A DNA stretch of 32,201 nucleotides from an uncultured Acidimicrobiales bacterium. GTDB lineage: Bacteria > Actinomycetota > Acidimicrobiia > Acidimicrobiales > SHLQ01. This document shows, piece by piece, positions 14,737-26,882 of this stretch. Every line of letters starts with the position of its first letter. Position 1 is the stretch's first letter. Made by a program: the position numbers and the translations under genes. The stretch spans positions 1-32,201 of the forward strand of contig CALGZB010000234.1 in NCBI GenBank assembly GCA_937934655.1, in the 5' to 3' direction. The notes below the pieces were generated by a model that had not been told where the DNA came from, did no database searches, and saw only the letters and a program-made list of their open reading frames with translations.

Positions 14737-17700
14737 CTACTGCAATTCGTCAGCTACGACACCGAGTTCCGCGGCAACCACGAAGGCGGACCGTCGAGTA
14801 ATCAATGGGATGTCGTCGACCAACACACCGAGTCTCGATGCCTCCGACAGCACATCGTCAACCGACCGCACCAAGACTTCGCTTACCCATGTCGCACTCA
14901 TGATGTCTTCGCTCGGTTGCGTATCGATCTGGCGAATGATCCAGTCGATGATCTGGTTGAGTTCGGCGGCCGCACTTTCACTGGCCGGCCAGGTCAGCTT
15001 TGCGGCAACCGGCGAGGTCAACCCCATCCAGTCGGTCTCGACGAAGTTGGCCAACCGGTGCCGGAGCGTGCGTAGCGCACGACGAGAATCGAAAGGCTGA
15101 AGCGATGCGAGAAGATCGGTACGCATCGTGATGCCATCGGCATCGATAAGCAAGAGCGGCAGCGGCTGTGATCGTTCCCGAACAGCCCACGCCAGGACGA
15201 GTCGACTGTTCGGATCGTTGGCCACTGCACCGCCGAGGATTCGAGTGGTGGCAATCAATGAGTCGACCAACTCGTTCTGGGAGAGCGAGAGGTCTTCAAG
15301 CCATTGCGACTCGATCTTCGCAATTCCCTCTTCGGTGAGGTCGATCATTTGTGGCTCGTCGGGACCAGACTCAACGGGAGAGACACCGGAACCCTCGTCG
15401 TCGAGGTTCCGATCTTCGTCGAGCGCCGCTTCGAGGCTGGCAGCCTCAAGATCGCTTCGGTTCACCCGATGAAGCGTTTCATCATCACCATCGCTGGTCG
15501 ATAGCACCCAACGATCAGAGACAACTCGCGCATCGCTGGCTTCGACACGAGGCGGAGCCGGCGCCGAACCGGTCGTCGCCGATTCCTCGGCACTTTCGGT
15601 CGAGGCCTCGATCGTAAAACCGCCTACCTCTGACGCTGCGGCCAGGAGTCGAACCGCCTGATCGGCGACCGCCGAGCCGAGTCGGCTACGGCTACCCGCT
15701 TCGTGGACAAACCCGTCGATCGAAACCAATACCTGCCGGAAGTCATCATCGAAGACCACTTCGGAGCCGGCGAGATCAGCAAGTCGCGCCTGCTCGGCGC
15801 GCAGCATTTGGAACGTACTGTCCTGCTCAATAGGGAACTCAAGGATCGTCTCGACTCGGTGCCGAAGAACCCGACCGCCGAGCGCAATCCCCGAGTCGAG
15901 GGTGCGGAATCGAACGGCCCATTCCTCGGGTACCGATGTAGACGAGAACCAACTCTCGTTGTGGATCTCCGCGCGATCGCGCACTGACGTCCAGAAGCTG
16001 CGATAGATGGCGTTATGAGCGAGGACATCGCGATCGACCACCATTTGCGTGGTCTGAAGCATCTCGCGCCGCATCTCGGGGGCATCGACAAACCGGTCCG
16101 AGCGACGCGGCGCACAGGCCTTGAGGAGCAAGGAACGAAGGTCGCCGCTGAGAGCTGGGGCAAAGATTGATGGGTCCTGCGGTTGCTCGCCGAGGTTCGG
16201 GATTCCCGAAGCGAAAGGGTGCGCACCGCAAACCATCTCGTAGAACAACACGCCTACCGCAAAGAGATCGGGCCCAACGTCCCAACGATGGACGCCCGAC
16301 TCCGGATCGGGATCGATATAGCCATGTTCCGGGGCCGGTAGTTCGGCATGGTCGAACCGCAAAAGGGGATCGACCAGCATCACGCCACCGGGGACCCGAA
16401 TAATGCTTGACGGCTTCAGGTCGCCGTGGACAACACCATCGGTGCGCAGCTTGCGAAGCGTCGAGCGCTCCTCTGGACGAAGGAGTCCGGCTGTCCCCCA
16501 CTTCGTGAGCTCGGCAATACGTTGCGCATCGGGGTGGATTTCGCTCAAGACTTGAAGCAACGCATCGATGAGAGCGACGGCCTCGGCGGGCACCAGCTTG
16601 TCGCCCGAATCAATGAGCTCCGAAAGCGGCGTGCCATCGATGAAATCAACGATCATCCACAAACGGTCGGAGCTATCGGTGACCATCGTTGGTTGCGGAA
16701 GTTTGGAGCCAGCGGGGCTGCGACGGGCAAGTCGCTCGAGGCCGCCCGGGCCGATGACTGGATCGAAGACCTTGCCGACCTTTGCCGACCCGTCAGCGCC
16801 ATCGTGAAGAAGGAACGTGGCCCAAGCATGGCCGATACCGAGCCGCCGCTTCACCTCATAGCGGTTGTCAATAATTTCGTTCGACCGGACCTGCGGAACA
16901 CCGCTGAGATCAAGGCTGCGTCGTTGCGATGCGATGAGGTCGTCGAGTGCGTCGAGGAGTGGCTCGAGCGTCGTCACCCGGTCCGATGCTTCGAGTTCGA
17001 GCATTGAGGGCAGCAGCTCGCGGAGCTGTTCGGGACATTCTTTCGGAGCGGCATAGGAACCGGATCTGATCGAATCGGTTTCGCCGGCATAAAGAAAGTG
17101 CAGCGATGCGCCCAGACCAAAGATGTCGGTGCGGCCATCAATTTCGCCTAACTGAGCCTCGCTGACTTCGGGGGCAACGAACGCCGGGTCAACGAAATCC
17201 GATACACCCGGCGCGACCGAACGAGCAAGGAACTCGGCCGGAAGCGGCGGCGTGGCGATGTGGTTCACTCCATGGTCGAACGGAAGGGGTAGCGGAGCGG
17301 GCGCAACGAGACGAGCGCGAGTATCGGCGGCGATGACGATGTTCTCGGGAGCGACACGACCATGGACGATGCCATGGTTTCCGAGGAGAACGAGCGCTTC
17401 TGCGCAATCACGGAACCATCCGAGCACAACCGCTTCGCTCGACTCGATTCCTTGATGCAGAAGCATCCGAAGTGTCCGGCCCGCCGGCTCGCGGTAGACG
17501 ATGCACGCCCCCAGTTGCTCGTCTTCAAAAAGATCGAGAACAGCGACGAGACCAGAATTGGGCGGTACTTCAGACCACGCTTCGTGGCGGCTGCGCAGGT
17601 GGGCGACATCGGCCCCCCGGTCAGCACGGAGGAAGAGAGGCCCGGTGGCGTTCTTCGAAAGCTCGAAGTCAGACGGGTCGGCCGGAATAACGCGGAACAG

Positions 17701-18297
17701 ATCGTGGGTGGATGATGCTTCGAGGTGGTCGACGACCCGATAGTTTCCGAACACGAGCGGCTCGGTCGAGGTCTTTGCTACCCGCTCGAGGGCCAGCGCA
17801 ACCTGCTCTGCCGCCAACCCATCGCGGGCCCGCAACGGAATTTTCGTCGAATCAGCGACCAACGTGGCCAATGCTTTCGGCCCGAGGATCCCGGGGCGTC
17901 CATCCGAAGAGATGTCGAGCGCAGCGGGTGACTGGGTGAGGACCGTAACGGGCTCGAACCACAGCGGCAACAAGCGAGGGTCGCGCCCAACCAGAATATC
18001 GCGCAGTGCATTCGCTTTCGCTTGCGCCATAGATTGGGGGACCCAGCGGGCTTCACCGTCGACGGACCACTGAAACCCGTCGCCATGGATACGGCCGGTC
18101 CAGTGGCAAAGTTCGACGACATAGGTCCCGTGGGGCGCAAGGATAAGCAGGTCGAACTGCCAGAGGCGTCCGTAGCTATCGCTGAGCGAGACATCCGGGA
18201 CGAGATACGTCGTGTCAGGCAGGCGCGCTGCCAGAACGTCCAACACAACCCTTGAGGAAGCAGACGGATATCCGCCGAAAGTCTTTACCTGAGCCAC
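14737..18297 (-). CDS. NERD domain protein with tandem kinase-like domains
   Basis: A 1186-residue multidomain protein. Residues ~10-110 form a NERD (nuclease-related) domain: 'LWQFDLLILAPHGTYVVELCHWTG', with D49 and E62 kept but the usual Lys of the ExK motif replaced by C64. Residues ~182-455 form a first kinase fold: the HRD motif is H312-G-R314, so the catalytic Asp is lost, and no DFG is seen, so a pseudokinase. Residues ~477-745 form a second kinase fold with G-loop 'LGIGHAW' (486-492), candidate Lys 506/509, H624-G-D626-L-K628 kept, and D643-P-L in place of DFG; the usual Asn is S631, so activity is uncertain. Residues 750-1186 are unrecognised and end in a helical acidic region. No membrane segment. 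TAGCGT ends 6 nt before the GTG start. NERD plus kinase recalls PglW of BREX, but no PglX/PglZ is near. Confidence 0.85.
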   Translation of the reverse strand: MAQVKTFGGYPSASSRVVLDVLAARLPDTTYLVPDVSLSDSYGRLWQFDLLILAPHGTYVVELCHWTGRIHGDGFQWSVDGEARWVPQSMAQAKANALRDILVGRDPRLLPLWFEPVTVLTQSPAALDISSDGRPGILGPKALATLVADSTKIPLRARDGLAAEQVALALERVAKTSTEPLVFGNYRVVDHLEASSTHDLFRVIPADPSDFELSKNATGPLFLRADRGADVAHLRSRHEAWSEVPPNSGLVAVLDLFEDEQLGACIVYREPAGRTLRMLLHQGIESSEAVVLGWFRDCAEALVLLGNHGIVHGRVAPENIVIAADTRARLVAPAPLPLPFDHGVNHIATPPLPAEFLARSVAPGVSDFVDPAFVAPEVSEAQLGEIDGRTDIFGLGASLHFLYAGETDSIRSGSYAAPKECPEQLRELLPSMLELEASDRVTTLEPLLDALDDLIASQRRSLDLSGVPQVRSNEIIDNRYEVKRRLGIGHAWATFLLHDGADGSAKVGKVFDPVIGPGGLERLARRSPAGSKLPQPTMVTDSSDRLWMIVDFIDGTPLSELIDSGDKLVPAEAVALIDALLQVLSEIHPDAQRIAELTKWGTAGLLRPEERSTLRKLRTDGVVHGDLKPSSIIRVPGGVMLVDPLLRFDHAELPAPEHGYIDPDPESGVHRWDVGPDLFAVGVLFYEMVCGAHPFASGIPNLGEQPQDPSIFAPALSGDLRSLLLKACAPRRSDRFVDAPEMRREMLQTTQMVVDRDVLAHNAIYRSFWTSVRDRAEIHNESWFSSTSVPEEWAVRFRTLDSGIALGGRVLRHRVETILEFPIEQDSTFQMLRAEQARLADLAGSEVVFDDDFRQVLVSIDGFVHEAGSRSRLGSAVADQAVRLLAAASEVGGFTIEASTESAEESATTGSAPAPPRVEASDARVVSDRWVLSTSDGDDETLHRVNRSDLEAASLEAALDEDRNLDDEGSGVSPVESGPDEPQMIDLTEEGIAKIESQWLEDLSLSQNELVDSLIATTRILGGAVANDPNSRLVLAWAVRERSQPLPLLLIDADGITMRTDLLASLQPFDSRRALRTLRHRLANFVETDWMGLTSPVAAKLTWPASESAAAELNQIIDWIIRQIDTQPSEDIMSATWVSEVLVRSVDDVLSEASRLGVLVDDIPLITRRSAFVVAAELGVVADELQ

Positions 18298-18303
18298 ACG
18301 ACC

Positions 18304-18309
18304 ACGCTA
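18304..18309 (-). promoter_or_regulatory. -10 element of the NERD-kinase gene (leaderless)
   Basis: On the minus strand TAGCGT ends 6 nt before the GTG at 18297, within the 48-bp gap after the upstream membrane-protein gene. The kinase can therefore probably be transcribed on its own as well as from the upstream promoter. Confidence 0.45.
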
Positions 18310-18345: not shown

Positions 18346-19281
18346 CTAGTGGGCGTTTGGGCAGAGAAGTTGGGTACCGGACCGAAGCCAAGACCGGATC
18401 GGACCTGCTGAAATGCCCGATCGAGAGGAGGCGACGGACACGGCCTCGCCCAACGTTCGAGCGCTGCATGCCTCGCCAGCCATCGCAACAAGCTGACTAC
18501 GAGAGAGTGCGGCGAGTTCGGCGTGGGCCTGGCGAGCTCGCAAGGCTGCTTGGTCGATAGCGGGCACATCGACTCGATCGTCGAGTGACGGACCGCCATC
18601 GGTGCTTGGATCCAAGCCGCTACCCGGTTCGGCGGGCTGAGACGGTGCTGAAGGTGCGACCGGCTGATCAGCTGCAGGAAGCGGCGTTGACCCGGCGGGC
18701 GTGCTGCCGTCGGTGTCCGCAGGAGAAGACGGCGAGGAGGATGCTGAGCCTGAAGACGACGAAGACGATGAAGTCGATGAAGACGGAGCGAGGTCATCAG
18801 CCGCCGCGTCAGTGCCGGTGTTCTCTTGCCCACTACCGACATCGGCGATGACCTTTTCGGCCGGAGCGGACACATCGGCTCCGCCAGAAGCGACGAACGG
18901 GCCGTCTACCGACACGGGCAGCTCGGCCGACTGAAGTTCTCGGTCAGAAGGTTGGGGCGAAAGTGCGACATCGACTTCCTGTCCGCTGCCTGTGCCCCCA
19001 AATCCCCCGATGCCCGCGGCAACAAGACCGACCAGCATGATCGCGGCAGCAACCGCGAGCACGACGTTTCGACCTTCGCCGTTGGCCGGAATCAATCGCG
19101 GCTCGTGAAGGTGCTCGGACTCGACCGCTGGCACCCACGAGCTCGACGCCTGCTGCGACCAGGCAGGCCGCTCGGAATCGCCGGAAACCCAAACATCGGC
19201 TGCGGCGGAACCCCAAAGAGGGCCGCGTTGGCGAAACGACTCGTCGCCTTCGTCGCGTTGCCCCGGTTCTCCGCTCGACAT
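18346..19281 (-). CDS. Single-pass membrane protein with DUF732-like extracytoplasmic tail
   Basis: 311 residues. An N-terminal cytoplasmic part (1-70, polar, Trp-containing) is followed by one membrane segment at ~72-93 ('VVLAVAAAIMLVGLVAAGIGG'), then an extracytoplasmic low-complexity stretch rich in Ser, Pro, Asp and Ala, including a run of Ser (~165-190). The C-terminal ~60 residues, with 'LVAMAGEACSARTLGEAV' and ending 'SGTQLLCPNAH', carry two Cys spaced as in actinobacterial DUF732 domains (small secreted disulfide-linked helical domains); the match is by eye. Type II-like topology is inferred. It lies 48 bp upstream of the NERD-kinase gene, so it could act as its membrane anchor or sensor. 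TACTCT ends 7 nt before the ATG. Confidence 0.78.
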   Translation of the reverse strand: MSSGEPGQRDEGDESFRQRGPLWGSAAADVWVSGDSERPAWSQQASSSWVPAVESEHLHEPRLIPANGEGRNVVLAVAAAIMLVGLVAAGIGGFGGTGSGQEVDVALSPQPSDRELQSAELPVSVDGPFVASGGADVSAPAEKVIADVGSGQENTGTDAAADDLAPSSSTSSSSSSSGSASSSPSSPADTDGSTPAGSTPLPAADQPVAPSAPSQPAEPGSGLDPSTDGGPSLDDRVDVPAIDQAALRARQAHAELAALSRSQLVAMAGEACSARTLGEAVSVASSRSGISAGPIRSWLRSGTQLLCPNAH

Positions 19282-19294: not shown

Positions 19295-19378
19295 CCGCAT
19301 CACCGATGGTCACCAAAGGCCACATTGTGGGGTGCCCAAACGCCCCGACCCAGCGCAGGTTCCCCCGAAAAGAAAGCC

Positions 19379-19410
19379 AAGCGTCACAGAGCCGAAGCTC
19401 TGTGACGCTT
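19379..19410 (-). terminator. Intrinsic terminator with UUCG tetraloop
   Basis: Read on the minus strand, AAGCGTCACAGAGC pairs perfectly over 14 bp with GCTCTGTGACGCTT around the loop TTCG, a C(UUCG)G tetraloop, and is followed by GGCTTTCTTTTC, a T-rich tract. It lies 124 bp after the stop of the PAP2-type gene, so it ends the glycosyltransferase operon. Just before it, GGAAC-TTCG-GTTCC (19428-19415) forms a second, shorter UUCG hairpin. The 124-bp stretch between the stop and the terminator holds no convincing gene. Confidence 0.8.
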
Positions 19411-19533
19411 GAGCGGAACCGAAGTTCCTGTCGCTGTTCGTCCCAACAGCAGTGCCATCGTAAACGAAGTTTTCCCGTCTCGAAACAGTCAGACTGTGGG
19501 TTACTGACACGGTTTGTGACATCACCTGCACCT

Positions 19534-21441: not shown

Positions 21442-23409
21442 TCAGGCAGCGGCTCTCTGGGTCGTCGCGGAAGACTCTTCGTATCGGAACAGCTCGGAGA
21501 ATGACACCACCATTCCGGCGGACTCGAAACTCTCAGGAATCGTGGCGAGCTGTGCGGTGAACAGCGCCTGAGAAAGTGCGCCTTGTTCGGCCCACTGGCC
21601 GGGGGTGAACCCAATGGCATAACCGTCGTCGGTGTTCTTCTTGACCACACCGGTGAGGGTATGGATGAGGCCGCCCTGTTTGAAGGTGACCGACACTTCT
21701 TGGCCGGCATGCAGCCGAAGCGGTGGGTCATCGATCGAGTGCGGGATTGCATCGGCGTTGATGAGTCCGCCGTTCATCGAGGGGCGATGCAGCATCGCAC
21801 GGTGACCGCCGACCTGGACCGAAAATGGCAGATTGAAACGCTGGGCGCCACGACGCTCGGCGGCAAAGCGCCACGAGATAGCTCGACCGAGTGCGGCAAA
21901 GAGGACGCCGATGTTGAGAACGAGGAAGAAAAGGGCGATCGCTACGACACTGAACTGCTTGTACAGCGTTGGCGTGTACCCGAGGACACTGGCGATGAAG
22001 TATCCCCACACACCCAGACCGATGACGGTCAGGAACATCAGCGAGGAGGGAAGATGGCCGACGTCGCGCTCAGATCCCGAACGACCCTTGGGCGTCACCA
22101 GGAACTTCGCCCCTTTGGGGAAGATCAAACGACCAAGAGCACGGACGCTCGCCGGCACCCGAAAGAAGTCGAACATGATTCCGGCACCGAGACTGTGGCG
22201 TCCTCTCGACAGCATCAACATGGCAAATTGCTGGCTCAGGAATACCGCTGCATAGAGGGGCACAAAGATTGAAAGAGGTGCGTCGACCGGTGCCTGGCCG
22301 GTACTTACGACCGCCAACGACAGTGCGAAGTAGCCCAGAGTACGGATGCCCTCGAACCAGCCGCTCAGGGTGGCGGCATAGGAGACTCGCTGAGCCATCG
22401 TGAGGCCCCGTTTAAAGAACGGGGTGTCCGAGCGGATGATCTGCATCGCGCCGGCGCCCCAGCGTCGGCGCTGTACGGCGTATTCGAGATAGTTGGCCGG
22501 GGCGAGACCGCGAGCCAGCACCTCGTTGTGGAACATCGTTTTCCAACCATTGCAATGGAATCGCATGGTGGTGTGAAGGTCTTCAGTCAGGCTTTCAGTT
22601 GCGACGCCCCCGACCGAACGGAGCGCCGCGGTGCGCAACACGGCACTGGTTCCGCACCAGAAGGCTGCGTTGTGTTTGTTCTTACCCGGCTGAATCACCC
22701 GGTAAAACATTGCCTCTTCTTGATACGGGCCAACGTGTTCGAAAGAATCGACGTTGTAGAAGTCCTGCGGTGTTTGCACCAGCGCGAGTTGCTCGTCTTC
22801 GAAGTAACCCAGCGTGTTCGTGAGAAATCCGGGCGACGGCACATGGTCGGCGTCGAGAATCCCAACCAGGTCGACGTCGATGATGCCGAGCGCGTGGTTG
22901 AGGTTGCCGGCTTTGGCGTGGCTGTTGTCGGGACGGTTGAGGTAGTGCGCGCCCAGACTCTCGGCCATTTCCCGAACCCATTCCCGATTGCCGTCGTCGA
23001 GCACCCAGGTTTCGTGGGCCGGCTCGAGGGCTACTGCCGCGCTGACGGTTGGGAGCAGGACTTCGGGGTCTTCGTTATAGGTAGGGATGAGCATCGCGAT
23101 GGTGTGATGGGTTTCCGACACCGGGTCAGGGATCGTCGACGAGTCGATATCCCAGACCGAGAACACAAAGAGCCCAAGGCTTATCGCACCGTGAACCTCG
23201 AGGAGGAAGAACGGCACGGCCATCCAGAGCGCGTCAGGCGCAAGGGTGAAGGCCAACCGCCACCCGAGGTAGATGAGGGTGACGACGATCGAGATAACGG
23301 CAAGGAGTCGCATAGTCCGAAGCTTGCGATCGGCTACGCCACCGTTTGAACCGTCGTTGAAGACGGTGGGCTCATCAGTCTGAGCAGCGGGAGAGGTCGG
23401 TTTCGCCAT
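21442..23409 (-). CDS. BcsA-like processive glycosyltransferase (GT2) with PilZ domain
   Basis: 655 residues, inner-membrane enzyme. Two or three N-terminal membrane helices (~33-90), then the GT2 core: 'LIPTYNEDPEV', D138-D139-G, HAKAGNLN (164-171), D186-A-D188-H, T275-E-D277 (TED, catalytic base) and Q313-RR-R-W317, the processive-synthase QxxRW motif. Further helices follow, with 'AKFLVTPKG' (434-442), the gating-loop-type motif of cellulose synthases. A C-terminal PilZ domain (~518-625) has R520-xxx-R524 (RGAQR), but the [DN]xSxxG motif is only partly kept ('RPSMNGG'), so c-di-GMP binding is plausible but not certain. It would polymerise a UDP- or GDP-sugar and export the chain. First gene of the operon with Gfo/Idh/MocA and PAP2 genes. 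Confidence 0.93.
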   Translation of the reverse strand: MAKPTSPAAQTDEPTVFNDGSNGGVADRKLRTMRLLAVISIVVTLIYLGWRLAFTLAPDALWMAVPFFLLEVHGAISLGLFVFSVWDIDSSTIPDPVSETHHTIAMLIPTYNEDPEVLLPTVSAAVALEPAHETWVLDDGNREWVREMAESLGAHYLNRPDNSHAKAGNLNHALGIIDVDLVGILDADHVPSPGFLTNTLGYFEDEQLALVQTPQDFYNVDSFEHVGPYQEEAMFYRVIQPGKNKHNAAFWCGTSAVLRTAALRSVGGVATESLTEDLHTTMRFHCNGWKTMFHNEVLARGLAPANYLEYAVQRRRWGAGAMQIIRSDTPFFKRGLTMAQRVSYAATLSGWFEGIRTLGYFALSLAVVSTGQAPVDAPLSIFVPLYAAVFLSQQFAMLMLSRGRHSLGAGIMFDFFRVPASVRALGRLIFPKGAKFLVTPKGRSGSERDVGHLPSSLMFLTVIGLGVWGYFIASVLGYTPTLYKQFSVVAIALFFLVLNIGVLFAALGRAISWRFAAERRGAQRFNLPFSVQVGGHRAMLHRPSMNGGLINADAIPHSIDDPPLRLHAGQEVSVTFKQGGLIHTLTGVVKKNTDDGYAIGFTPGQWAEQGALSQALFTAQLATIPESFESAGMVVSFSELFRYEESSATTQRAAA

Positions 23410-23498
23410 GACTCTTGTGTTTTCGACCTCTCAGGCCGTCGACCTGATGAGTCGAATAGCCCATTCGTTCGCCCGACGAACTCGCCGATGTTCAGGGT

Positions 23499-24707
23499 GT
23501 GCGACAACGCTTCACGCTCGGAATTTTGATGGCCATCGCGGCAGTTCTTCTTGCCACGTCGATGGTCGCTATCGCGGTTCGACCCGAGGTCGACCTCACC
23601 GAACCTGCTTTCACGGTCACTTCACCCCGCCTTGTCGGCGCCGACCCCATCATCATCGAAGTCCCCGAGGGCGGATTCGCCTTGGGCGATCCATCCAGCG
23701 ACACCGACGATACCGACGGAACCGACTCGGAAGATCCAAACCTCGCCCTTCCCGCCGTGTACGACTACGAATTCCTCGATGGCTTTCCCAACTTTCCCGA
23801 AGGAAAGGTATTCGGGGTAAACACCAGCCGAGGTCTCGATACCGAGTTAGACAAGTTCGCTGTGTCTGCGGGCCGCCTGCCAAACCTCATCCAGGTGACC
23901 GCTGGCTGGGAAGGCGATAACTATCAGCCGTGGTTCACCGAACGCATTGCCAACCGCGGCGCAATGCCCTTGATCTCCTGGGAGCCGTGGGACGCAGCTC
24001 AAGAGAGCACCATCGATCAGCAGCGAAGCGAACAACCCAAGTACTCGCTGAAGAAGATCATCGCCGGCGAGTTCGACGACTACATCGACGACTGGGCTGA
24101 CAACCTGGCCGAGTGGAACGAACCGGTTGCCCTTCGCTTCGCTCACGAAATGAACGGGTATTGGTACCCATGGGCCGAAGGCAGAAACGGAAACGCCGAA
24201 GGCGACTACGTCGATGCGTGGCGCTACGTTCACGACCGGTTCACCGCCGCCGGAGCCGACAACGTCCTTTGGGTCTGGTCACCAAACGTCACCTACGAAG
24301 GCTCAACCCCGATTAGCCCGCTTTACCCAGGCGACGACTACGTCGACTGGATCGGAATGGTCGGTTACTTCGGACACGGCGACGTCGAGCCGGTGGCATA
24401 CCCGACATTCGATCAACTCTTCGGCAATACCCTCGAGCAGTTGGACGAAATTTCCTCCAAGCCGGTTCTGATCACCGAAACCGGCGCCACCGAACGCGGC
24501 GGGTTTAAAGCCGAGTGGATCGAACACACCCTTGAAGAGATCGCCTCAAACGATCGCGTTCTCGGGTTCATCTGGTTCGATGTCGACAAAGAGACCGACT
24601 GGCGAGTTACGAGCTCGCCCGAGTCGGCGGAGGCGTTCCGTGAGGCCGCAACCGATCCTCGTTGGGCGCCCGCCGGCCCAGTGATTCAAACCGTCGAAGC
24701 CGACTAA
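23499..24707 (+). CDS. Secreted or membrane-anchored GH26 glycoside hydrolase
   Basis: A 402-residue protein of the GH26 family (beta-mannanase / beta-glucanase clan GH-A). An N-terminal signal or anchor (MRQRFTLGILMAIAAVLLATSMVAIAV, ~1-27, shown in two parts of the family pattern) precedes an acidic linker (~65-80, DTDDTDGTDSED). The catalytic acid/base is E217 in 'RFAHEMNGYWYPW' and the nucleophile E327 in 'VLITETGAT', each in its expected place. It hydrolyses beta-1,4-linked mannan, or possibly mixed glucan. The GTG at 23499 is preferred since it keeps the positive charges before the hydrophobic stretch. It is divergent from the BcsA-like gene (89 bp between starts). Confidence 0.92.
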   Translation: MRQRFTLGILMAIAAVLLATSMVAIAVRPEVDLTEPAFTVTSPRLVGADPIIIEVPEGGFALGDPSSDTDDTDGTDSEDPNLALPAVYDYEFLDGFPNFPEGKVFGVNTSRGLDTELDKFAVSAGRLPNLIQVTAGWEGDNYQPWFTERIANRGAMPLISWEPWDAAQESTIDQQRSEQPKYSLKKIIAGEFDDYIDDWADNLAEWNEPVALRFAHEMNGYWYPWAEGRNGNAEGDYVDAWRYVHDRFTAAGADNVLWVWSPNVTYEGSTPISPLYPGDDYVDWIGMVGYFGHGDVEPVAYPTFDQLFGNTLEQLDEISSKPVLITETGATERGGFKAEWIEHTLEEIASNDRVLGFIWFDVDKETDWRVTSSPESAEAFREAATDPRWAPAGPVIQTVEAD

Positions 24708-24738
24708 CACCCACAACTGTCAGAGCGAGTGGTCAGCG

Positions 24739-26757
24739 CTAGTCGACGCGACGACTGCCTCGGATAAACGCGCCTCTCGATGCGCCTGAGGAGTCGAATC
24801 GCCAGTCGACTTCTCCCTGGTTGGCCTTGTCGACCTGGAACCAAAGCACCGCAGACACGTCGCGTCGGCCGTCGAGGAACTTAAACATGTTCGAGATCCA
24901 TGCCGCTTTGTCGCCGCCGCTCTCGGCACTGCCGGTCTCGGCAATCATGACTGGTCGGTCGGTAAGACGTGCGACCTCATCGAGCGAGTCTTCGAAAATT
25001 TCACGAAAGCTCTTCCAGCCACCGAAACGAGGAAGCGCGTCGCCGCCGTTGTAGCCGTCGAGTCCAACGATGTCGACATACTGGTCACCCGGGTAGAGGG
25101 CGGCATAGCGAACCCCTGCGGGTGCACCCGTGTTCGGTGACCATACCCACTGAACATCGGTAGCGCCCTCTTCTTGAAACACCTGCCAGGCGTGGCGGTA
25201 AGCGCTAACGACATGAGCAGCGGTGTTGCCGCGGTGTCCGACCGACCAGGGGTACCAGTTGCCGTTCATTTCATGCATGAAGCGCAGAAGGACTGGTTGA
25301 TCGAGCCGATCGAGCTGGCGGGCCCAACGACGGAGATCCGCATCGATATCGCCGATGATAATGCTGTAGGCCGGGTTGTATGAGTCCTCGACGCCGTAGG
25401 GCTCGAGGGTGAGCATGACGACATGACCGGCGTCTTGAGCCGCACGAATCTGGTTCAGAGGCACCTTGGACTCGGGATTGAGGAAGCCGTGCACGATATC
25501 GGCTTTGCGACCTACGGCGGCTTCGAAGGTTGGCGCTTCGTCAAGATCCCACGGAATCGCATCGCCGGTGACTCCCACGAGGAGCTTGCTCGACAGCCCG
25601 CCAAGCGTCGGACGGGTAGGTTTCGGAACGGAGCTACCCACGGGTGTTACCACCGATACTTTGCCGTCGAATCCGGCCGGGCCCCGGAAGATCAGTTGGA
25701 GCTGGTTGACGCCCTTTGTCGCGAGCGACACATTCGCTACTTCGCCCGGTTCGTTGAGTCGCCACGTTTTTAGCGCAACGCCGTCGCCCACTGCGGTAAC
25801 AACCACTGGCGATGAGCCGAGCGTTGCGAAAGGGTCGAGATGCAGGCCCGTGGCAAAGTGTCGGTAGTCGCGGCCGAGTCGATAGGTGACCGATGCGCTA
25901 CCGGCGGTCAGCTTGCACGAGTTCGATGCGCCAATCACTCGACCGCCCGAGGAGATGCGGCCGGCCGACCATACTGCGCCCGATGATGGGCAGTTGGAAG
26001 TCGACGTCTTGTAGGCGAGCCAGTACGGCTCACATGCGACGGCATTTGCGTCGTCTTGGCAACCGTCGAATCCTGAACCGCCGGTGAGCTGGTCGTCGCC
26101 GTAACCGCCATCGAGAAAGTCATCGCCGCGACCGCCACTGAGTCGATCGGTATCGATGTCGCCGTGGAGTTCATCGACGCCCTCGCCGCCATTGAGTGCG
26201 TCGTTTCCAGCACCCCCGCGAATGATGTCGTTGCCGCCTCCGCCGAGAAGCGCGTCGTTTCCGTTGCCGCCTTCGATGAGGTCAGAGCCAACGCCGCCAT
26301 CGATGTAGTCGTTGCCGGTGCCCCCAACGATGCGATCGTCGCCGGGGCCGCCACAGATCAGGTCGTTGCCTCCGCCGCCGGCGATCTTGTCGGCGCCGCC
26401 TCGTCCGACGATGATGTCGTTGCCGGCCGTGCCTACCAATACGTCGGGCCCACTGCCACCGAGAATCGTTGCGTTTTGCCCGCGGCACGTGGTGGCCGCA
26501 ACCCGCTGCGCCACGACGTCGTCGGCGTCGAGTTCGAGCAAATCGCTCTCGAGCGCAGACAGATCGAGGCCGGCATCAAGGCTGGTATCGAGGCTGGTAT
26601 CGAACGCTTCGGGTCCCGATTGGGCAATGGCCTGGGCACCAGAAAGCGGTTCGGTTACTGAGGCGACGAGGGCCACGGCAAGCAGCGCGACAACAAGGAA
26701 AAGGCGTTTCACAGGGAGGTTCCAACTACAAACAGTGGCGGGGGGTGACAGCGACAT
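24739..26757 (-). CDS. Secreted RTX-repeat, NPCBM-like, GH26 multidomain hydrolase
   Basis: About 672 residues. A Sec-type signal peptide (residues ~16-45, LFLVVALLAVALVASV, cleavage near AQAIA) precedes an acidic segment. About 15 nonapeptide repeats of the GGxGxDxUx type (residues ~98-234) follow, typical of RTX calcium-binding beta-rolls. Next is a beta-rich domain (~250-365, 'YRHFATGLHLDPFATLG', 'VVVTAVGDGVALKTW', 'VNQLQLIF') resembling NPCBM carbohydrate-binding modules, and then a GH26 catalytic domain with acid/base E496 ('RFMHEMNGNWYPW') and nucleophile E607 ('MIAETGSAE'). The start is uncertain: ATG 26757 lies 12 nt after a TATACT -10, GTG 26712 is also possible, and GTG 26877 is unlikely. 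It converges with the other GH26 gene 31 bp away and is probably extracellular. Confidence 0.9.
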   Translation of the reverse strand: MSLSPPATVCSWNLPVKRLFLVVALLAVALVASVTEPLSGAQAIAQSGPEAFDTSLDTSLDAGLDLSALESDLLELDADDVVAQRVAATTCRGQNATILGGSGPDVLVGTAGNDIIVGRGGADKIAGGGGNDLICGGPGDDRIVGGTGNDYIDGGVGSDLIEGGNGNDALLGGGGNDIIRGGAGNDALNGGEGVDELHGDIDTDRLSGGRGDDFLDGGYGDDQLTGGSGFDGCQDDANAVACEPYWLAYKTSTSNCPSSGAVWSAGRISSGGRVIGASNSCKLTAGSASVTYRLGRDYRHFATGLHLDPFATLGSSPVVVTAVGDGVALKTWRLNEPGEVANVSLATKGVNQLQLIFRGPAGFDGKVSVVTPVGSSVPKPTRPTLGGLSSKLLVGVTGDAIPWDLDEAPTFEAAVGRKADIVHGFLNPESKVPLNQIRAAQDAGHVVMLTLEPYGVEDSYNPAYSIIIGDIDADLRRWARQLDRLDQPVLLRFMHEMNGNWYPWSVGHRGNTAAHVVSAYRHAWQVFQEEGATDVQWVWSPNTGAPAGVRYAALYPGDQYVDIVGLDGYNGGDALPRFGGWKSFREIFEDSLDEVARLTDRPVMIAETGSAESGGDKAAWISNMFKFLDGRRDVSAVLWFQVDKANQGEVDWRFDSSGASRGAFIRGSRRVD
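26056..26463 (-). repeat. DNA segment encoding ~15 RTX nonapeptide repeats
   Basis: Successive 27-bp units on the minus strand encode GGSGPDVLV, GTAGNDIIV, GRGGADKIA, GGGGNDLIC and so on, to GGYGDDQLT and GGSGFDGC. The Asp and Gly positions are strongly conserved while the other bases vary, so selection acts on the protein (calcium-binding beta-roll), not on the DNA sequence. Confidence 0.85.
26567..26602. repeat. 12-bp tandem repeat in the RTX-GH26 gene
   Basis: Three 12-bp units lie head to tail: AGGCCGGCATCA, AGGCTGGTATCG and AGGCTGGTATCG, encoding the DTSLDTSLDAGLD segment just after the signal peptide. The third copy is identical to the second, suggesting a recent slippage. Confidence 0.7.
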
Positions 26758-26769
26758 GGCGTTAGCGAA

Positions 26770-26775
26770 AGTATA
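26770..26775 (-). promoter_or_regulatory. -10 element of the RTX-GH26 gene
   Basis: On the minus strand TATACT lies in an AT-rich stretch, with TTGGTT 18 bp upstream as a possible -35. It would give a short 5' leader before the ATG at 26757 or about 50 nt before the GTG at 26712. Confidence 0.45.
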
Positions 26776-26882
26776 CGAAAGGCATTGAAACCCAACCAAA
26801 CCCACGAAAAACCACAACAAGTGAGAATATAGGCCAAAAACACTACAAATGACAGTCTTTGGGCCGATAACTCCCACCAGCT

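Follow-up and report, generated by a model that had tools for sequence, protein, structure and literature searches.

The window analyzed here is a stretch of 32,201 nt of a contig from an uncultured bacterium of the order Acidimicrobiales. On its minus strand, an open reading frame that runs from a GTG start codon at position 18297 to a stop codon at position 14737 (14737–18297) encodes a protein of 1186 amino acids. Six segments can be distinguished, all on the minus strand: (i) a NERD domain (residues 1–125; 17923–18297), matched by Pfam PF08378 over residues 16–121 (E = 8.6e-11); (ii) a first kinase fold, a pseudokinase (residues 185–460; 16918–17745), matched by PF00069 over residues 250–443 (E = 1.5e-11); (iii) a second kinase fold (residues 470–755; 16033–16890), recognized by NCBIfam and PADLOC models and by PDB kinases; (iv) C-terminal domain 1 (residues 756–896; 15610–16032), defined by predicted structure and Foldseek; (v) a variable, probably disordered linker (residues 897–983; 15349–15609); and (vi) C-terminal domain 2 (residues 984–1186; 14740–15348), defined by sequence identity and the structural model. 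We refer to the two kinase folds as kinase 1 and kinase 2. The initial annotation had described a giant NERD-pseudokinase-kinase protein, and the Pfam, NCBIfam, PADLOC and PDB kinase matches, together with a residue-by-residue check, bear out that description and every motif it named. The start codon is supported by a conserved TAGCGT sequence resembling a −10 box (18304–18309, minus strand), which lies 6 nt 5′ of the GTG in the window and 6–7 nt from it across all four species of the genus. The position of the box fits a leaderless transcript, if it does act as a promoter.

Gene order around this frame is the same in all four species: DNA ligase, galK, the gene for the 1186-aa protein, PAP2, a glycosyltransferase and a GH26 gene. 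The gene had been placed between galK and a single-pass membrane protein; galK is its neighbor in 4/4 species, while the membrane-protein ORF (311 aa; 18346–19281, minus strand) has no match there in any of the three remaining species. This ORF appears to contain a single membrane segment, along with a stretch rich in Ser, Pro and Thr, and it has a weak PADLOC match to PD-T4-6 (E = 2e-4). At 21442–26877, a cellulose-synthase-like glycosyltransferase is adjoined by a GH26 protein and an RTX-repeat/GH26 protein. The GC content of the region is level with that of the rest of the window.

The interval between the PAP2 gene and the gene for the 1186-aa protein contains several conserved elements. 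An 18-nt dyad, GCTGTTGGGACGAACAGC (19433–19450, minus strand), is identical in the four species, occurs once per genus genome and is absent from the three genomes of the family that were tested. After it come another small hairpin and then one that resembles an intrinsic terminator, 3′ of the PAP2 gene (19377–19412, minus strand); a strong hairpin is found at this place in 4/4 species. Neither the window nor the dyad matched an Rfam family at gathering score. A terminator scan found no more sites in the region overall than in shuffled sequences, and the case for a terminator here is the 16-pair stem and its conservation. Because a conserved terminator-like hairpin follows PAP2, the gene for the 1186-aa protein is probably its own transcription unit, perhaps together with galK.

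The arrangement of NERD domain, pseudokinase and kinase, in that order, is the arrangement of PglW of type-2 BREX (NF033442; PADLOC PglW). A NERD domain, an inactive kinase and an active kinase have been described for PglW and for a subset of DndF proteins (PMC12839542), and the same order has been described for DndF (PMC10853773). In a profile-profile comparison with hhalign, using four sequences on each side, residues 16–752 of the 1186-aa protein aligned with PglW at 99.95% probability (E = 1.2e-38), an alignment that spans the NERD domain and both kinases. A match to PglW is thus convincing over residues 16–752 and is not full length. The PglW-type C-terminus, with its wHTH modules and inactive STAND domain, was not found in the 1186-aa protein (hhalign E = 0.39 against four PglW sequences, with four-sequence profiles), and the protein scores 84.1 bits with the NCBIfam PglW model, for which the cut-off is 990. 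PglW autophosphorylates, and the VAIK Lys of its second kinase is required (PMC4365076).

The best family match is to MAD6 (NF047741), with 217 bits and E = 3.9e-64 over residues 1–588; this is below the curated cut-off of 460 bits. The MAD6-like proteins compared have a P-loop-like GxxGxGKT motif in their C-terminus, unlike the 1186-aa protein, and two plasmid-borne MAD6-like proteins follow N-6 methylase genes. DndF kinase fusions are described as having the same successive domains (PMC10853773), but no Dnd gene was recognized beside the 1186-aa protein. Proteins of 944 aa (genome G078) and 991 aa (G135) from the same class have the same three domains, with only 28% and 23% identity. A profile of kinase 2 scores 154–160 bits on kinases fused to BrxL in three genomes (loci L042, L043 and L109) and 156 bits on a tandem-kinase protein of genome G048, its nearest relatives outside the genus; no other domain scores above about 58 bits. 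These BrxL proteins, with a fused C-terminal Ser/Thr kinase, are found in actinobacterial genomes (L042, 7425–10418, plus strand; L043, 9343–11802, minus strand; L109); those of L042 and L043 consist of BrxL plus kinase. In a tree of kinase domains, the fork that sets PglW apart together with ordinary kinases is weak, and the branching of the kinase 2 of the genus is left open.

Kinship to these proteins is accompanied by loss of catalytic residues. The E-x-K position of the NERD domain reads E62-L63-C64 (18106–18114, minus strand), and residue 64 is Cys, His, Cys and His across the four orthologues; none of the four has the E-x-K with Lys expected of an active NERD nuclease. The Lys is kept in all ten aligned relatives (two proteins of the same class, one from Nonomuraea, three MAD6-like proteins and four PglW). 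In kinase 1, H312-G313-R314 (17356–17364, minus strand) replaces HRD, an Arg is found at or near the place of the VAIK Lys, and residue-by-residue inspection found no DFG. The initial annotation had counted this first kinase among the eroded catalytic sites. Its erosion is not peculiar to the 1186-aa protein: the HRD Asp is missing from 9 of the same 10 relatives, the exception being a MAD6-like protein of Hymenobacter, and the protein of G078 shares the HGR. Kinase 1 is therefore the pseudokinase already described for the NERD-pseudokinase-kinase module (PMC12839542, PMC10853773).

Kinase 2 is partly preserved. Three residues expected of active kinases, the VAIK Lys (K509), the HRD Asp (D626) and the DFG Asp (D643), are invariant in the four orthologues, and the catalytic-loop Lys (K628) is kept as well. 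The catalytic loop reads HGDLKPSS (residues 624–631; 16405–16428, minus strand), with Ser631 in place of Asn; DPL (residues 643–645; 16363–16371, minus strand) stands in place of DFG; and the position of the αC Glu is taken by Ser527 (16717–16719, minus strand), in an RR-S/T context in the orthologues versus Glu in the relatives compared. HGR, Ser631 and DPL are common to 4/4 orthologues, all of which have Ser or Thr at position 527. Because these losses are shared by all four, they are not assembly errors. The initial annotation had named homologues with intact motifs as grounds for refuting it, and this applies by half: distant relatives carry an intact ExK in NERD and intact HRD and D-F-x in their second kinase, but the orthologues do not. 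The aligned relatives retain the αC Glu, loop Asn and D-F-x of kinase 2: the proteins of G078 and G135 have ExK, HRD or HND in kinase 2, and DF motifs, and the BrxL-fused kinases have HRD, Asn and DFN. Since the aligned relatives keep these residues of NERD and kinase 2, their loss is, among the sequences compared, particular to the genus. By this alignment, the dead first kinase is ancestral.

Full-length orthologues were found in all four genomes of the genus, all of them metagenome-assembled and each from a different species, with identities of 77, 60 and 51% to the protein in the window. No full-length member was found outside the genus among 395 genomes of the class or 397 of the phylum, and a search of genome contigs returned no full-length member beyond the same three other species. 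The suggestion of a broadly conserved actinobacterial system thus gives way to a distribution confined to one genus. The regions around galK in five genomes of other genera are not syntenic, so an empty site cannot be demonstrated. Between the window and one other species (G003), the gene as a whole has a dN/dS of about 0.08, and the individual domains for which it could be computed have 0.04–0.10 (NERD 0.08, kinase 2 0.07, C-terminal domain 2 0.04), similar to the neighbors galK (0.07) and the ligase (0.11); all of these ratios are rough, because dS is near saturation. Judged from these codon comparisons, the gene is under purifying selection, and the strongest constraint in the protein falls on C-terminal domain 2. 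A decaying PglW or MAD6 remnant on its way to becoming a pseudogene would account for the lost catalytic residues, and no partner genes were found. It is disfavored by this constraint, greatest in C-terminal domain 2, and by reading frames that are intact in four species, at 1175–1206 aa; we regard it as very improbable.

As the initial annotation held, the gene lies outside any recognized defense operon. None of PglX, PglZ or BrxC was found among the scanned neighbors, nor was any other gene of BREX, MADS or Dnd type recognized there. No MADS gene is adjacent; the neighbors are the ligase, galK, PAP2, Gfo/Idh and glycosyltransferase genes. Across the four genomes of the genus, nothing convincing was found for PglZ, the candidates being three ORFs of about 400 aa, one of them of 402 aa, with E-values of at least 1.5e-4.

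Gene neighborhoods outside the genus were read for the proteins of G078, G135 and G048, the BrxL-kinase fusions of L042 and L043 and the two plasmid-borne MAD6-like proteins; most of these relatives lie in BREX, MADS-like or restriction loci, unlike the 1186-aa protein. The 944-aa protein of G078 has GmrSD, a C5-cytosine methylase, Vsr and AbiEii as neighbors; genes for a sigma factor and a type IIG enzyme come after that of the 991-aa protein of G135; the tandem-kinase protein of G048 adjoins a SIR2-like gene; and the BrxL-kinase loci L042 and L043 contain BrxC and PglX, one of them also PglZ. The company kept by these relatives, and the retention of the key Lys and Asp residues of kinase 2, would suit a stand-alone anti-phage sensor or effector with atypical chemistry, that is, a kinase 2 that works without the canonical Asn and αC Glu, or a NERD domain with a migrated basic residue. 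Synteny that is fixed in four species and ordinary constraint are unlike the patchy occurrence of mobile defense genes, however, and the NERD and kinase 2 sites have been lost together, beside neighbors among which no defense gene was recognized. We consider an anti-phage role of this kind unlikely.

Predicted structures offer a lead on the C-terminus. A full-length AlphaFold2 model from four sequences had a pLDDT of 43.5 and was set aside. A model of the C-terminus, also from four sequences, had a mean pLDDT of 60.8, with values of about 75–92 for the greater part of the domain 1 core and about 50–78 over most of domain 2. Domain 1 is predicted to have the order α-β3-α-β2-α, as in CesT and YbjN, and the best PDB matches of the C-terminus by Foldseek are CesT, ExsC, SicP, SigE and YbjN (E = 0.009–0.3, none below 0.001). 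With domain 1 taken as the matched domain from its secondary structure, these predictions are a lead to, not a proof of, a peptide-binding chaperone-like fold. A match of domain 1 to DUF4268 (E = 0.09, in one of the four members only) is a hint. Foldseek against viral proteins, a PDB profile search, PHROGs and Pfam gave no convincing match for the C-terminus. The linker (residues 897–983) is 47, 32 and 26% identical among orthologues and has low pLDDT; C-terminal domain 2 is 85, 71 and 50% identical and may end in a helix-turn-helix-like tail.

A different role is suggested by the genes alongside: the protein could be a scaffold, non-catalytic or with weak kinase activity, that regulates the adjoining envelope-polysaccharide locus (glycosyltransferase, PAP2 and GH26). 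The genus has retained the flanking genes, and the synthase-like gene, like the gene for the 1186-aa protein, was found in all four genus genomes and in 0 of 26 other relatives searched. There is also a precedent for a NERD protein in wall synthesis. SmdA of Staphylococcus, whose NERD domain is missing several conserved residues, acts outside defense, in cell division and wall synthesis (PMC9040797), although it is a membrane protein without kinase domains. Against such a role, the terminator-like hairpin and the promoter-like box, both conserved, part the gene from that operon; the window, G003 and G002 have Gfo/Idh in the interval from PAP2 to the synthase-like gene, where G001 shows no match to it (L033, 11757–14576); and adjacency is the whole of the argument. 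A regulator of the polysaccharide locus strikes us as doubtful. We are similarly skeptical that a defense sensor-kinase was domesticated into a triple pseudo-enzyme that serves purely as a non-catalytic regulator of a genus-specific envelope-polysaccharide locus.

We favor, with a probability of roughly 0.55, the reading that the 1186-aa protein branched off as a pseudo-enzyme from the anti-phage NERD-pseudokinase-kinase module (PglW, MAD6 and DndF type), is now fixed in one Acidimicrobiales genus as a core protein passed on vertically, and acts as a non-catalytic scaffold or switch. The scaffold or sensor originally proposed fits this reading, and all four orthologues share the lost catalytic residues. 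In its favor are the alignment of residues 16–752 with PglW, the MAD6 match, the loss of the NERD Lys and of the kinase 2 residues in 4/4 orthologues, constraint on a par with that of the neighbors, the shared place in four species and the even GC content, with PglW and SmdA as precedents. Against it, loss of canonical residues is no proof of inactivity: some pseudokinases keep atypical activity, and the Lys of a PD-(D/E)XK site can be replaced from elsewhere. Kinase 2 also retains its key Lys and Asp residues, and the comparison covers four species, all from metagenome-assembled genomes. In a mechanism of this type, the NERD domain and kinase 1 would be non-catalytic folded platforms for docking or ligand binding. 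In kinase 2, the VAIK Lys, the HRD Asp, the catalytic-loop Lys and the first DFG Asp remain and the αC Glu and the Mg-binding Asn are gone; it could still bind nucleotide, and it may switch conformation instead of phosphorylating efficiently. The chaperone-like C-terminal domain or domains might then hold a partner protein, to which the signal would pass.

In the current view of PglW-type proteins, kinase 2 carries the signal and NERD perhaps cuts. If both sites are dead in the 1186-aa protein, along with the pseudokinase, and the protein is nonetheless under selection, then the module would have a non-catalytic role, and a protein of conflict systems would have been recruited into core cell biology. 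The orthologues would also be natural mutants with which to test the importance of individual residues in PglW and MAD6.
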